This document shows positions 1 to 9,965 of a DNA stretch of 64,000 nucleotides, piece after piece (the first letter of the stretch is position 1; each line of letters begins with the position of its first letter). Origin of the DNA: an uncultured Pelagibacteraceae bacterium (GTDB lineage: Bacteria; Pseudomonadota; Alphaproteobacteria; Pelagibacterales; Pelagibacteraceae). A program made the position numbers and the translations under genes. The stretch covers positions 1 to 64,000 of the forward strand of contig CACIKD010000002.1 in the NCBI GenBank assembly GCA_902587145.1. Reading direction: 5' to 3'. A model generated the notes under the pieces. That model saw nothing but the letters and a program-made list of their open reading frames with translations. It was not told the DNA's origin and made no database searches.

Positions 1-891
1 TTTACTTTGATCGTCATGCACTAAATCTTCCGGTTGTAATAGAAGTTTAACACTTTTTCCCTTGGGATAATTTTTTAGTAATTTACCTCTAATTTCACCT
101 AACTCATTATGTTGTAAACTGTGAACAGCACAATCATTGGTTAATACTTTTACTTCTACAAATACTCCCTTATTTAAAAATTTTGCAACTTCTAAAGAAT
201 TTGGTTCATGATGAACATTGTAAGGAACATCATATTGTTTAAGTTCCTGATTAAGAATTATTCCACAACGATCTGCTAAAGAAAATGCTTCGTAGGAGTC
301 GTGAGTGACGATTATTGTTGTTAAATTAATTTTTTTAAGTAGTTTTTTTACAGAATATTGTATTTCTTCTTTAAGACTTTGATCAATATTTGAAAAAGGC
401 TCATCCAATAATAATAGATCTGGTTTAGACATTAATGATCTTGCTAAAGATACTCGTTGAGCTTCGCCAGCACTTATTTGGTGGGGAAATTTTTCTAGAA
501 TTGGTTCAATATGAAGTAATTTAATAATGTCGTCTGTTTCGTAAGAAAAGCCGTTACCATTAGATCTTTTTTTTCCAAAATTTATATTGTCAATTACTTT
601 ATAATTTGGAAATAAAGAATTGTCTTGAAATGATAAAGCTATATTTCTTTTCTCTGGTTCTACATGAATATCCTTTGAAGATATTAATTTATCTTTTAAA
701 TATATTTCTCCGGAACTCAGTTTTTGCAATCCAGCAATAGTTCTCAGTATTGTTGTTTTACCAACACCAGAAGGACCTAATAAAGAGACAATTTCACCTT
801 TTTTTTCTATTTTAAGGTTTACATTATTGACTTTATTTTTTTCACTCGCAACAAAATTACCGGCTTTAATTTCAAAAAATCGATTTGACAT
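1..891 (-). CDS. fbpC: Fe(III) ABC transporter ATP-binding protein (FbpC-like), 3' end truncated by window start
   Basis: Reverse-strand frame from ATG at 889-891 (MSNRFFEIKAGNFVASEKNKVNNVNLKIEKKGEIVSLLGPSGVGKTT...) with Walker A and an ABC signature further on; downstream of an iron permease. Not in the ORF list because it runs off the edge. Confidence 0.85.
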   Translation of the reverse strand, partial: MSNRFFEIKAGNFVASEKNKVNNVNLKIEKKGEIVSLLGPSGVGKTTILRTIAGLQKLSSGEIYLKDKLISSKDIHVEPEKRNIALSFQDNSLFPNYKVIDNINFGKKRSNGNGFSYETDDIIKLLHIEPILEKFPHQISAGEAQRVSLARSLMSKPDLLLLDEPFSNIDQSLKEEIQYSVKKLLKKINLTTIIVTHDSYEAFSLADRCGIILNQELKQYDVPYNVHHEPNSLEVAKFLNKGVFVEVKVLTNDCAVHSLQHNELGEIRGKLLKNYPKGKSVKLLLQPEDLVHDDQSK

Positions 892-903
892 TTTTTGATT
901 ATA

Positions 904-2520
904 TTAGTTTTTTTGTGAAAGTATATATTTTGAAGAAAATATTATGAGGATAGTTGCCCAACTTATAAGAAATAAAGAAGGTAATGCCGCAGCTTCTAAT
1001 AAATCTTGAGAGGCATAGACATATGCTTGTGTAGCAAAAGTCTCAAAATTGAAAGGTCTTAATATCATAGTAATTGGTAACTCTTTTATAATTTCTAAAG
1101 ATATGAGCACAACTATTAAAATTATATTGTTTTTTAAATATGGAACATGAATGTTTGAAAAAGTTTTAATTTTTGAATACCCAAGTAAATATGCGCTTTC
1201 ATCTATTGAATTATTTATTTTCTCATAACTAGATTTAATTCCATTAAAAGAAAGAGAAAAAAATCTTATAAAGTACGCTAAAACTAAACCAAATATAGAT
1301 CCTATAAATATTTTTTTGGTACTTCCTAAATTTGTACTTTCACTTAATAATTCACTAAAATTGCTAAATAAAGTTATAAAAGCTACAGCTAAAATAACAC
1401 CCGGAATTGCATATCCTGAAATTGAGAAATTGGTTAAATAATTTAAAATTTTACTTTTGGATATTCTGCTTCCATAATTGATAAATAATGAAATAAATAC
1501 TAATACTATACTAGCAAGACCTACCAAATACATTGTATTTAAATTTATTTTCAAAATATTAATGTCTTGGATATATTTTGGAAATTTCAAAGTCCAATAG
1601 ATCATTTGTGAAACTGGAAAAATAAAACTTATACAAAATACTAAAAAGCAAAAAGAAAAAGCTAGCAAAGATTTTTTCCCACTAAGTTTAATCTTATTAA
1701 TTGGTTTAAATCCTCTTCCTGGTTGATGATATCTCGCCTCTTTTCTTGAGTAAATTTCTATAGATAAAAGAATTAAAATAAATAATAGTAGTATGAAAGA
1801 AATTTGATTGGCTGTATTTAGATCATCAAAAGACAACCAAGAGTTATAAATTCCCGTAGTTAATGTAGAAACACTAAAAATTGATACTGTTCCAAAGTCA
1901 GACAAACATTCCATAGCAACTAGTGCTAAACCGGCAATAATTGCTGGTCTAGCTGAAGGTAAAATAATCTTAAATAGAGTTTCTTTCTCAGATAAACCCA
2001 AATTTTGACCTACTTCAATATAGTTGTTTGATTGAAAGAAAAATGATGATCTTGTTAATACGTATACATAAGGAAACAAAGAAAAACTTATAGCTATAAT
2101 TGATCCTAATATTCCATCTAATTTAGGTATATGTGGGTTATAGTTATATTCACCAAATATATTAGTAAGTATTGTATAGGCGGTTCCATAGTTTTCAAAA
2201 AAAGCAATTATTGAAAAAGCAAATATGTATCCTGGTATTGCAAACGCTAAAATTAAAGCCCAACTAAAAAAATTACATAATGGAAATTCATAAAATGATA
2301 TAAAATAAGCTGAAATAACACCCAATAAAAAAGTTATAAGCAAAACTGAAATTAAAATAGTTAAAGAATTATTTATATAATCAAATAGAAAAGTATTTTT
2401 TAATACTGTAATGTAATTACTTGTTTCAGCAAAAAAACTGAAAAATACAGTGATAATTGGCATTGCAACTATTAATGCAATTGCTAATGAGCTGAAAAAC
2501 CAGAAGTTATATTTAGTCAT
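904..2520 (-). CDS. fbpB: Fe(III) ABC transporter permease, FbpB/AfuB type, fused two-domain permease
   Basis: 538 aa multi-TM protein with duplicated permease domains; adjacent to fbpA and fbpC. Confidence 0.88.
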   Translation of the reverse strand: MTKYNFWFFSSLAIALIVAMPIITVFFSFFAETSNYITVLKNTFLFDYINNSLTILISVLLITFLLGVISAYFISFYEFPLCNFFSWALILAFAIPGYIFAFSIIAFFENYGTAYTILTNIFGEYNYNPHIPKLDGILGSIIAISFSLFPYVYVLTRSSFFFQSNNYIEVGQNLGLSEKETLFKIILPSARPAIIAGLALVAMECLSDFGTVSIFSVSTLTTGIYNSWLSFDDLNTANQISFILLLFILILLSIEIYSRKEARYHQPGRGFKPINKIKLSGKKSLLAFSFCFLVFCISFIFPVSQMIYWTLKFPKYIQDINILKINLNTMYLVGLASIVLVFISLFINYGSRISKSKILNYLTNFSISGYAIPGVILAVAFITLFSNFSELLSESTNLGSTKKIFIGSIFGLVLAYFIRFFSLSFNGIKSSYEKINNSIDESAYLLGYSKIKTFSNIHVPYLKNNIILIVVLISLEIIKELPITMILRPFNFETFATQAYVYASQDLLEAAALPSLFLISWATILIIFSSKYILSQKN

Positions 2521-2685
2521 TTATTTTTTTGAATTAATCTTCTCTTTGAGTGGAAAGAATATTTGTTTAGCCTCTTCGAAACTTAAATCTTTTGGGTCTT
2601 TATTTTGAAGTTGATTTTGCATACTCTTAGCATCATCATTACAAGTTTTGCACCCCTTTTTACAAGTATTTAATTTATTTTTCAT
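2521..2685 (-). CDS. Small Cys-motif protein (54 aa) in iron-uptake operon
   Basis: Unlisted short ORF: MKNKLNTCKKGCKTCNDDAKSMQNQLQNKDPKDLSFEEAKQIFFPLKEKINSKK*. Stop abuts fbpB start; GGAATA upstream of ATG. Alternative in-frame ATG at 2698-2700. Confidence 0.65.
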   Translation of the reverse strand: MKNKLNTCKKGCKTCNDDAKSMQNQLQNKDPKDLSFEEAKQIFFPLKEKINSKK

Positions 2686-2698
2686 TATTCCAATATTC

Positions 2699-2717
2699 AT
2701 GGCGTTTTAAACGCCAT
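2699..2717 (-). other. Hairpin between fbpA and the small Cys-motif gene
   Basis: ATGGCGT-TTTAA-ACGCCAT inverted repeat just after the fbpA stop; no following U tract, so a 3'-end stabilising or processing hairpin is likelier than a terminator. Confidence 0.5.
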
Positions 2718-2734
2718 TAATAATTAATTAACAA

Positions 2735-3745
2735 CTATTTCCAACCAGCTGCTGTCATTACTTCTAATGCATCAGCTTGTCTTTTTCCGTAATTAACGAC
2801 TTTAGTTTTAAGATCTTGTTTAAAATCTAAACCCATATTAACTACTAATGGATGAGGTGAAACACCTGCTATCATTGGATATTCAAAAGTATTGTTAACA
2901 ATATGCTCTTGCGCTTCTTGACTCAGTAAGAACTCTACAAGCTTTATTGCGTTAGCTTTGTTAGGAGCTCCTTTTACTAAACCAGCACCACTGATATTCA
3001 TATGTGTACCTCTACCATCTTGGTTAGGGAAGAAAGGTTTTACTTTTTTTGCTGCAGCTTGTTGCTCAGCACCTTTTTTACCTGATAACATAAGAGCTAA
3101 GTAGTATGTATTAGCTACTGCAATATCAGCCTCTCCTGCTGCTACTGCTAGTATTTGTGCTCTGTCATTACCTTTTGGAGATCTAGCCATATTCGAGACC
3201 ATTCCTTTTGACCACTCTGCTACTTTACCTTTTCCATTATTTTTAATTAATGAAGCAACCAGTGATTGGTTATAAATATTGTTAGATGCTCTTATGACTA
3301 ATCTGCCTTTCCATTTAGGATCAGCTAAACTTTCATAAGTCAGACCTCTTAACTCTGCACCTGTAACTCTCTCTGGAGCAAAATAAACTATTCTTGCTCT
3401 TTTAGCTATACCAACCCATTTAGATGTTCTAAAATTACTAGGAACTGCTGACTTTATTGTGTCACTTGTTAAACCACCTTGTAAGTTGGCTGCAAATGCA
3501 CCAAGTCTACCAGCATCAGCTGTTATATATAAGTCTGCTGTGCCGCCCTCTGCGATTATTCTTTTCTCTAATGCGCCTGATTTTCCAGAAACAACGTTTA
3601 CTTTTATTCCTGTTTTAGCTGTAAATTTTTCATACAATTGAACATCTGAATCGTAATGTCTTGCACTGAATATATTTACTTCGTTAGCTAAAAGATTTCC
3701 AAAAACAAAAAATAATGCTGAAACTGCTAATATTATTTTTCTCAT
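2735..3745 (-). CDS. fbpA: Fe(III) ABC transporter substrate-binding protein
   Basis: Signal peptide plus NIFSARHYDSDVQLYEKFTAKTGIKVNVV..., typical of FbpA/FutA-type ferric-binding proteins. Confidence 0.9.
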   Translation of the reverse strand: MRKIILAVSALFFVFGNLLANEVNIFSARHYDSDVQLYEKFTAKTGIKVNVVSGKSGALEKRIIAEGGTADLYITADAGRLGAFAANLQGGLTSDTIKSAVPSNFRTSKWVGIAKRARIVYFAPERVTGAELRGLTYESLADPKWKGRLVIRASNNIYNQSLVASLIKNNGKGKVAEWSKGMVSNMARSPKGNDRAQILAVAAGEADIAVANTYYLALMLSGKKGAEQQAAAKKVKPFFPNQDGRGTHMNISGAGLVKGAPNKANAIKLVEFLLSQEAQEHIVNNTFEYPMIAGVSPHPLVVNMGLDFKQDLKTKVVNYGKRQADALEVMTAAGWK

Positions 3746-3786: not shown

Positions 3787-3811
3787 GAGAATGAGAATAA
3801 TTATCATTATC
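3787..3811 (-). promoter_or_regulatory. Candidate Fur-family box upstream of fbpA
   Basis: gagaatgagaataattatcattatc (reverse GATAATGATAATTATTCTCATTCTC), close to the classical Fur box GATAATGATAATCATTATC. Confidence 0.65.
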
Positions 3812-6861: not shown

Positions 6862-7275
6862 TTAAGTTTTTTTACACTTTTTGCATAATCCGAAAAATTC
6901 AAGATTATACTTTTTATATTTCATGCCAGATTTATCCTCAAAACTATTTAAGAAATTAGAAAGTTTATTGTTTGCGATTTCAGTGACTTTTTCACAAATC
7001 TCACAAATTGAAAAGGCAGTAGCTTTAGATACTTCACAATTAGAACTTTTACAGGCTACGAATGCATTTTTACTTTCCACTTTATGAATTTTGCCAAGCT
7101 TAATTAATTTTTCTAAAGCTCTATAAACTTGTAAAGGTGCTTTGATACCTTTTTTTTGAACATTAAATAAAATTGAGTAAGCTTTTAAAGGTTCTTTGGC
7201 TTTTTCAATAATATCTAAAATTATTTTTTGATTTTTAGAAAGAGTTTGTATTTGAGCCATATTATATTTTACCAA
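6862..7275 (-). CDS. zur: Fur-family regulator, probable Zur
   Basis: FUR-family wHTH plus CxxC pairs (CEIC, CKKC); follows znuC-znuB. Confidence 0.8.
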   Translation of the reverse strand: MVKYNMAQIQTLSKNQKIILDIIEKAKEPLKAYSILFNVQKKGIKAPLQVYRALEKLIKLGKIHKVESKNAFVACKSSNCEVSKATAFSICEICEKVTEIANNKLSNFLNSFEDKSGMKYKKYNLEFFGLCKKCKKT

Positions 7276-8891: not shown

Positions 8892-9965
8892 ATGATAAAC
8901 AAATTTTTAAAGCTTACAATTACTTTATTTTTTGCATTTACACTTAATTTTTCTGCTAATGCAGATATTAAAGTTGTGGCCTCTATTAAACCTATACACT
9001 CATTAGCAAGTTATTTGATGGATGGAGTTGGTAAACCAGATTTAATCGTAGATGGCTATAATTCTCCACATGGATTTGCATTAAAACCATCGCACGCTAA
9101 AATGTTGCAAAATGCTGATTTAGTATTTTGGGTTGGTGAAGACTTAGAAAATTTTTTAGAGAAACCATTAAAATCAATAGCAAAAAAAGCTGAAAAAATT
9201 GAATTAATGGAAATCAAGGGTTTAAAAAAATTAGAATTCAGAGAAAGAAACATATTCGAAGGGCATGATGATCACGGACATGACGATCATAAAGAACATG
9301 GTCATAAAGAGGCTAAACATGACGATCACAAAGAACACGGTCAAAAAGAAGCTAAACATGACGATCATAAAGAACATGGTCATAAAGAGGCTAAACATGA
9401 CGATCACAAAGAACACGGTCATAAAGAGGATAAACACGATGATCATCATGAACATGCTCATGGTGAGCACGATCCACATATTTGGCTTGATCCAATGAAT
9501 GCAAAAGTAATTTTAAGTGAAATGGCGGAACATCTAATTGAAAATGATCAAGAAAATGCATCAAAGTATAAAGCTAATTTAAAAAAAGCACACAAAGAGT
9601 TAGATAAACTAACAAAAAAAGTTAAATCTGATTTAAATAAAGACTTTAAATCAATTGTTTTTCATGACGCCTATCAGTATTTCGAAAAAAGATTTGATGT
9701 TAATGTTTTAGGAGCTTTTACAGTAAATACAGATGTATTACCTGGTGCAGAACAATTATCTGAGATTAGAGAAGTAATTGAACATGAAAAAGTAAGTTGT
9801 GTATTTTCTGAACCTCAATTTAACCCTGATATAATCAAAGCAGTAGCAAAAGATACAAATATTAAGACTGGAATTATAGATCCTTTGGGAGCTACTCTAA
9901 ATCCAGGAAAAACTTTGTATTTTGATTTAATTAAGAATATGTCTTCCTCTTTTAAAGGCTGTTAG
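8892..9965 (+). CDS. znuA: Zinc ABC transporter substrate-binding protein with His-rich repeat loop
   Basis: ZnuA/TroA family: signal peptide, ADIKVVASIKPIHSLASYLMDGVG, His/Asp-rich loop, HDPHIWLDPMNAK. Confidence 0.92.
   Translation: MINKFLKLTITLFFAFTLNFSANADIKVVASIKPIHSLASYLMDGVGKPDLIVDGYNSPHGFALKPSHAKMLQNADLVFWVGEDLENFLEKPLKSIAKKAEKIELMEIKGLKKLEFRERNIFEGHDDHGHDDHKEHGHKEAKHDDHKEHGQKEAKHDDHKEHGHKEAKHDDHKEHGHKEDKHDDHHEHAHGEHDPHIWLDPMNAKVILSEMAEHLIENDQENASKYKANLKKAHKELDKLTKKVKSDLNKDFKSIVFHDAYQYFEKRFDVNVLGAFTVNTDVLPGAEQLSEIREVIEHEKVSCVFSEPQFNPDIIKAVAKDTNIKTGIIDPLGATLNPGKTLYFDLIKNMSSSFKGC
9278..9433 (+). repeat. 39-bp (13-codon) tandem repeat x4 coding for HDDHKEHGHKEAK
   Basis: Units 9278-9316, 9317-9355, 9356-9394, 9395-9433; units 1 and 3 are identical, 2 and 4 nearly so. 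Confidence 0.92.

Follow-up and report, generated by a model that had tools for sequence, protein, structure and literature searches.

The window analysed here is a stretch of 64,000 nucleotides from an uncultured Pelagibacteraceae bacterium (contig CACIKD010000002.1). At its beginning, the genes for a binding protein, a permease and an ATPase are adjacent on one strand, as is characteristic of an Fe3+ ABC transporter (fbp/sfu) operon, and a small gene for a CxxC protein is inserted between fbpA and fbpB. In relatives, too, fbpC follows fbpB. The features of the locus are:

1-891, minus strand: fbpC/sfuA ATPase, cut by the window edge, with Walker A GPSGVGKT and SAGEAQR signature
904-2520, minus strand: fbpB/sfuB permease, 538 aa, BPD_transp_1
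2521-2685, minus strand: small CxxC protein gene, 54 aa, MKNKLNTCKKGCKTCNDDAKSMQNQLQNKDPKDLSFEEAKQIFFPLKEKINSKK plus stop, recognized from the ORF and its same-slot homologues
2641-2652, minus strand: CKTC, the window's form of the CxxC (Cys12, Cys15) that is invariant in 75/75 distinct sequences
2662-2664, minus strand: Cys8, first Cys of CxxxCxxC, not conserved
2699-2717, minus strand: intercistronic hairpin ATGGCGTTTAAAACGCCAT between fbpA and the small gene, fold z = -2.97 in the window
2735-3745, minus strand: fbpA/sfuC, Fe3+-type periplasmic binding protein, 336 aa, Pfam SBP_bac_6 and others, orthologue of HTCC1062 sfuC
3787-3811, no strand assigned: Fur-box-like palindrome upstream of fbpA, three overlapping matches to GATAATGATAATCATTATC with 2-3 mismatches

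The order binding protein-permease-ATPase is likewise that of fbpABC/sfuCBA in 'Ca. Pelagibacter ubique' HTCC1062, where sfuC-B-A is induced 16-, 10- and 5-fold under iron limitation (PMC2864753). In the window, the three overlapping matches to GATAATGATAATCATTATC compare with 0.07 expected over its whole length, and mark a predicted Fur site. Together with this box, orthology to the HTCC1062 operon suggests that the window's operon is iron-regulated as well. The induction data nevertheless come from a strain without the CxxC gene, since HTCC1062 has none in its fbpA-fbpB gap; the gene is an accessory addition in Pelagibacteraceae, found neither in HTCC1062 nor in the sister SAR11 family. Elsewhere in the window, positions 8892-9965 (plus strand) encode a periplasmic binding protein of the zinc type, into which a His-rich DDHKEHGHKEAKH repeat is inserted; next to it are a metal ABC transporter at 8834-7283 and, at 6862-7275, an ORF for a regulator resembling the Fur family.

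The first-pass annotation had placed an ORF of 54-59 aa at 2521-2700 on the minus strand, with its stop abutting fbpB. The ORF is present, and its TAA immediately precedes the fbpB ATG at 2520. Only the shorter version holds: the true start is the ATG at 2685, giving 54 aa, and the 59-aa version was rejected, for its ATG at 2700 is part of the conserved hairpin and, in the relatives that were read (e.g. L066), does not share the reading frame. Moreover, the ORF was said to fill the fbpA-fbpB gap exactly, but 49 nt including the hairpin separate it from the fbpA stop. The description of a charged, cytosolic product agrees with the sequence, in which 13 K/R and 7 D/E occur among 54 aa and inspection found no evident signal peptide or transmembrane segment. 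AlphaFold models, of low to moderate confidence, consist of helices with the CxxC at the N-end of the first helix, both for the window protein (mean pLDDT 65) and for a member from genus g6 (mean pLDDT 75).

To assess conservation, 75 distinct sequences were aligned, 62 from genus g6, eight from genus g1 and five from the window clade. The CxxC pair at the N-end of the predicted helix provides the only invariant columns; median column conservation is 69%, while an Arg reaches 99% and the Pro of CxPC 92%. The motif reads CxPC in 69 of the 75 sequences and CKTC in the window clade. Of the 75, 61 carry a third Cys in the form CxPCxxEC, in genus g6; the window clade has an additional Cys upstream of the CxxC instead, and some g1 members have two Cys only. 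The upstream Cys is lost even in L065, L188 and L189, which carry KCCSTC, and is missing from every member outside the window clade, so that CxxxCxxC is not the conserved unit and finds no support as the functional one. The reading frame is conserved in relatives (intact in 8/8 window-clade loci read), and the two Cys of the CxxC, far from varying freely, are kept throughout. Among the close relatives L065-L068 in the window clade, dN/dS ranges from 0.03 to 0.24; for genus g6, pairs with 0.1<dS<1.5 have a median of 0.32. Given the window-clade dN/dS values, and with about 250 genomes having the gene in this slot, the ORF is not a chance one. Judged from sequence comparison, it is a real, protein-coding and selectively maintained gene, and we regard the existence of the protein family as practically certain.

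Family members have 54-65 residues, typically about 56. The window protein has the CxxC and downstream helix pattern, the length (50-70 aa) and the fbpA-fbpB slot by which the family is recognized; it matches profile A1, which includes it, at E = 3.6e-21, and is also aligned in A3. A profile built from the first relatives found matches in 249 of 397 genomes of the order. In a draw of 397 genomes, equal in size and with the same genome labels where listed, fbpA was present in 318, of which 40 belong to sister family f2. The sole CxxC match in f2, in G119, has an E of 0.007, and the fbpA-fbpB gap of that genome holds a peroxiredoxin and no CxxC ORF. With f2 taken out, 248 Pelagibacteraceae genomes with the small ORF compare with 278 with fbpA, or about 89%. 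The ORF lies between fbpA and fbpB in 80/80 named Pelagibacteraceae loci fetched via fbpA and in 20/20 further loci drawn from the order. The former figure overstates the frequency, since these loci were picked as the top fbpA matches to an alignment that had itself been built from ORF-bearing loci; about 89% is the better figure. Six near-complete Pelagibacteraceae genomes (G077, G130, G006, G061, G064 and G065) have no fbpA-profile match at E 1e-40. A class-wide search beyond the order found no convincing member outside the family's own range; of four marginal matches (E 0.002-0.007), three cover only the region after the CxxC and two have in-frame stops, and all were set aside.

The CxxC gene is missing from the laboratory strain HTCC1062 and from about 30 other genomes, and several genomes, HTCC1062 among them, retain fbpA-fbpB in its absence. 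Locus L194 (G066:C1:1180955-1181971) was recognized as that of HTCC1062 by coordinate match of the fbpA span: its fbpA ends at 1181971, next to position 1181972, where the intergenic region for sfuC/SAR11_1239 starts (PMC2704228). The gap there is about 75 nt long and contains no CxxC ORF. In L157, L161 and L191 (G142), the start region of the gene is retained and the remainder deleted; the G142 slot also has a truncated peroxiredoxin. These remnants are recent losses in the slot. As genomes such as HTCC1062 keep fbpA-fbpB in its absence, the CxxC protein is dispensable and not needed for transport.

Neither the ORF nor its relatives match Pfam, NCBIfam or PDB sequences above chance, and a Foldseek search of AlphaFold model 2 against PDB returned no fold match. 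In viral contigs and phage records, no match to the protein rose above chance. Alignments to ferredoxin-like and CopA-like CxxC segments were discarded, their E values of 0.11-1.6 being at chance level. Bfd and other mini-ferredoxins are also small cytosolic Cys proteins linked to iron; however, the CxxC family has two invariant Cys only and no Pfam or NCBIfam match, and lacks the four ligating Cys in fixed pattern, with a Pfam match, that mark [2Fe-2S] or 4Fe-4S ferredoxins. Thioredoxin-like CxPC proteins are similar in having CxPC at a helix N-end, a likeness of motif and predicted position only, whereas the present proteins, at about 56 aa, have no strands in the models and no Pfam or fold match; the helix-only models thus do not display the thioredoxin fold that, with a CxxC, defines thioredoxins and glutaredoxins. 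A literature search found nothing on this CxxC protein. Within the libraries and papers searched, the protein falls into no described family; it adds a new accessory component to a type of transporter already known.

The neighbours that share the slot with the small gene mark it as one for redox proteins. Among 169 genomes of the window's genus that were searched, a flavodoxin occurs in the slot in 10, and in 9/10 it directly follows the CxxC gene, giving the order small ORF-flavodoxin-fbpB. It belongs to Flavodoxin_1, and both the slot gene and the fused domain described below score best against CysJ and MioC-like models, yet far below the equivalog cut-offs. The slot flavodoxin is accompanied by the CxxC protein in 10/10 genomes, but the base rate of the latter is near 0.8, so this co-occurrence alone is a weak argument. 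The stronger one is a fusion: in G026, flavodoxin and CxxC form one protein of 198 aa between fbpA and fbpB (L002/L172, G026:C7:23055-23648). The CxxC is present in the fused copy as CETC, and the fusion's tail shares 54% identity with the window protein across 41 residues. This is the only such fusion among the 169 genomes, and a search within the genus found no CxxC tail of this kind in other flavodoxins; the window ORF itself has no flavodoxin domain. Some g6 genomes have a peroxiredoxin gene immediately downstream of the CxxC gene (7/80 named loci, plus L056, L071 and L072), and 3/5 loci read from sister family f2 (L206, L207 and L208) have a peroxiredoxin as the slot's only gene.

Strong hairpins also recur between the cistrons at this junction, in most of the family. 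In the window clade the hairpin stands before the CxxC gene, with fold z of -6.1 (L065), -6.3 (L066) and -2.6 (L067); 95% of cells are paired, against at most 48% in slid controls, with one two-sided change only, in 6 sequences. In genus g6 it follows the CxxC gene and lies between the small ORF and fbpB (loci L073-L152), with z < -2 in 54 of 63 distinct gaps (mononucleotide shuffles). Hairpins are found without the ORF too, in HTCC1062 (z -5.6), G070, G073 and genus g9. Across lineages the junction hairpins differ in sequence and position, with or without the small ORF (also L194, L199, L163 and L195). An Rfam 'Histone3' hit at the hairpin, on the opposite strand and under the gathering score (E 0.085), was put down to chance similarity with a perfect stem. 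Since the hairpin is present without the ORF and on differing sides of it, it is not the ORF's partner. It probably serves at the fbpA/fbpB junction as an RNA-level device letting fbpA exceed the permease, and the falling induction sfuC > sfuB > sfuA agrees with an fbpA excess set in this way.

Because of the flavodoxin fusion, our best reading moves towards redox handling. We tentatively propose, as a possibility somewhat short of even, that the CxxC protein is a cytosolic dithiol/metal protein that partners a flavin or thiol redox protein in handling or reducing Fe3+ from FbpBC. The protein would be located in the cytosol next to the cytoplasmic face of FbpBC, its CxxC acting as a redox dithiol or forming a shared (homodimeric) Fe site; its partner would be an FMN flavodoxin (in cis in G026) or another reductant; and Fe3+ leaving the transporter would be taken up and/or reduced, and Fe2+ passed on. 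Where the flavodoxin gene is missing, as in the window's genome, electrons would come from another cellular reductant. In favour of this redox-partner role we count the invariant CxxC, purifying selection, constancy of the slot, the flavodoxin fusion and the peroxiredoxin in the slot, as well as the Fur-like box, the orthologous induction in HTCC1062 and the cytosolic character. Against it, most members have no neighbouring flavodoxin, fbpA-fbpB genomes without the CxxC gene exist, the sister family has the peroxiredoxin without the CxxC protein, and the AlphaFold models (pLDDT 65/75) give no fold match. A bolder version, in which the family is a dedicated cytoplasmic module of Fe3+ reduction or acceptance passing electrons from the FMN of a co-encoded or fused flavodoxin through the CxxC to Fe3+ leaving FbpBC, is rather unlikely. 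The sequence by itself is compatible with a redox relay, an iron acceptor or a reductant of peroxiredoxin. A metal carrier or sensor without redox chemistry, close to what the first-pass annotation had proposed, is somewhat unlikely; here the CxxC, acting alone, across a dimer or together with a third Cys that depends on the lineage (window clade CxxxCxxC, g6 CxPCxxEC), would bind Fe2+, Zn2+ or a small Fe-S cluster and carry iron off FbpBC or regulate the transporter. It accords with the invariant CxxC and the third Cys in 61/75, and the position of the g6 gene, on the fbpA side of a strong hairpin, may allow its product to outnumber the permease much as FbpA does, which would suit a carrier. 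However, the third ligand has no constant position and two-Cys g1 members lack it, leaving no single conserved metal site, the ferredoxin and CopA similarities are at chance, and the fusion points to electron transfer. The iron handling claimed earlier thus survives in part: a Fe3+ transport operon preceded by a Fur box links the protein to iron, but a specific Fe-S site is unsupported because the first Cys of CxxxCxxC varies.

The CxPC form is similar to redox-active motifs, and the adjoining peroxiredoxin genes, with the same slot used in the sister family, would fit a mini-redoxin that reduces the neighbouring peroxiredoxin and so guards against H2O2 and Fenton chemistry during iron import. 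This is improbable, as most members have no adjoining peroxiredoxin, the sister family does without the CxxC protein and the fusion partner observed is a flavodoxin. CruR (DUF2946), a CxxC uORF controlling a metal-uptake operon (PMC9426467), sets a precedent for a leader ORF whose nascent CxxC chain senses metal or redox state and sets fbpB-fbpC expression, the finished peptide being functionless. A small CxxC ORF in a metal-uptake operon is the common feature, the window-clade ORF ends at the fbpB start, and in g6 a strong hairpin follows the ORF. The hairpin is nonetheless independent of the ORF, which weakens such a model; in addition, the ORF is internal rather than operon-leading, a flavodoxin or peroxiredoxin gene can separate it from fbpB, the CxxC also occurs as the tail of a 198-aa flavodoxin, and neither a RAPP motif nor a DUF2946 match (Pfam), which would mark a CruR relative, was found in any family sequence. 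We consider a leader role highly doubtful. That the gene is a neutral or decaying leftover of the fusion after flavodoxin loss is barely credible: the window-clade copy is 46-55% identical to the fused tail against about 30% to the stand-alone CSPC form, and deletion remnants exist (L157, L161, G142), but the low window-clade dN/dS, the intact frames, the absence of a flavodoxin remnant upstream and the wide spread of the stand-alone form across the family all argue otherwise.

Pelagibacteraceae (SAR11) are among the ocean's most abundant cells and are often short of iron. To our knowledge, the fate of Fe3+ after import of the FbpBC type is not settled. Its sequence and setting suggest that the CxxC protein probably helps to handle or reduce iron just after import. 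If the flavodoxin-linked reduction module proposed above is true, a flavodoxin-CxxC module would couple SAR11 iron uptake to reduction without a classical ferric reductase. Retained next to the importer genes at roughly nine in ten fbpA loci of the family, the CxxC protein is a concrete candidate for the post-import Fe3+ step; studies confined to HTCC1062, the best-studied strain, were bound to miss it, because that strain does not have it.
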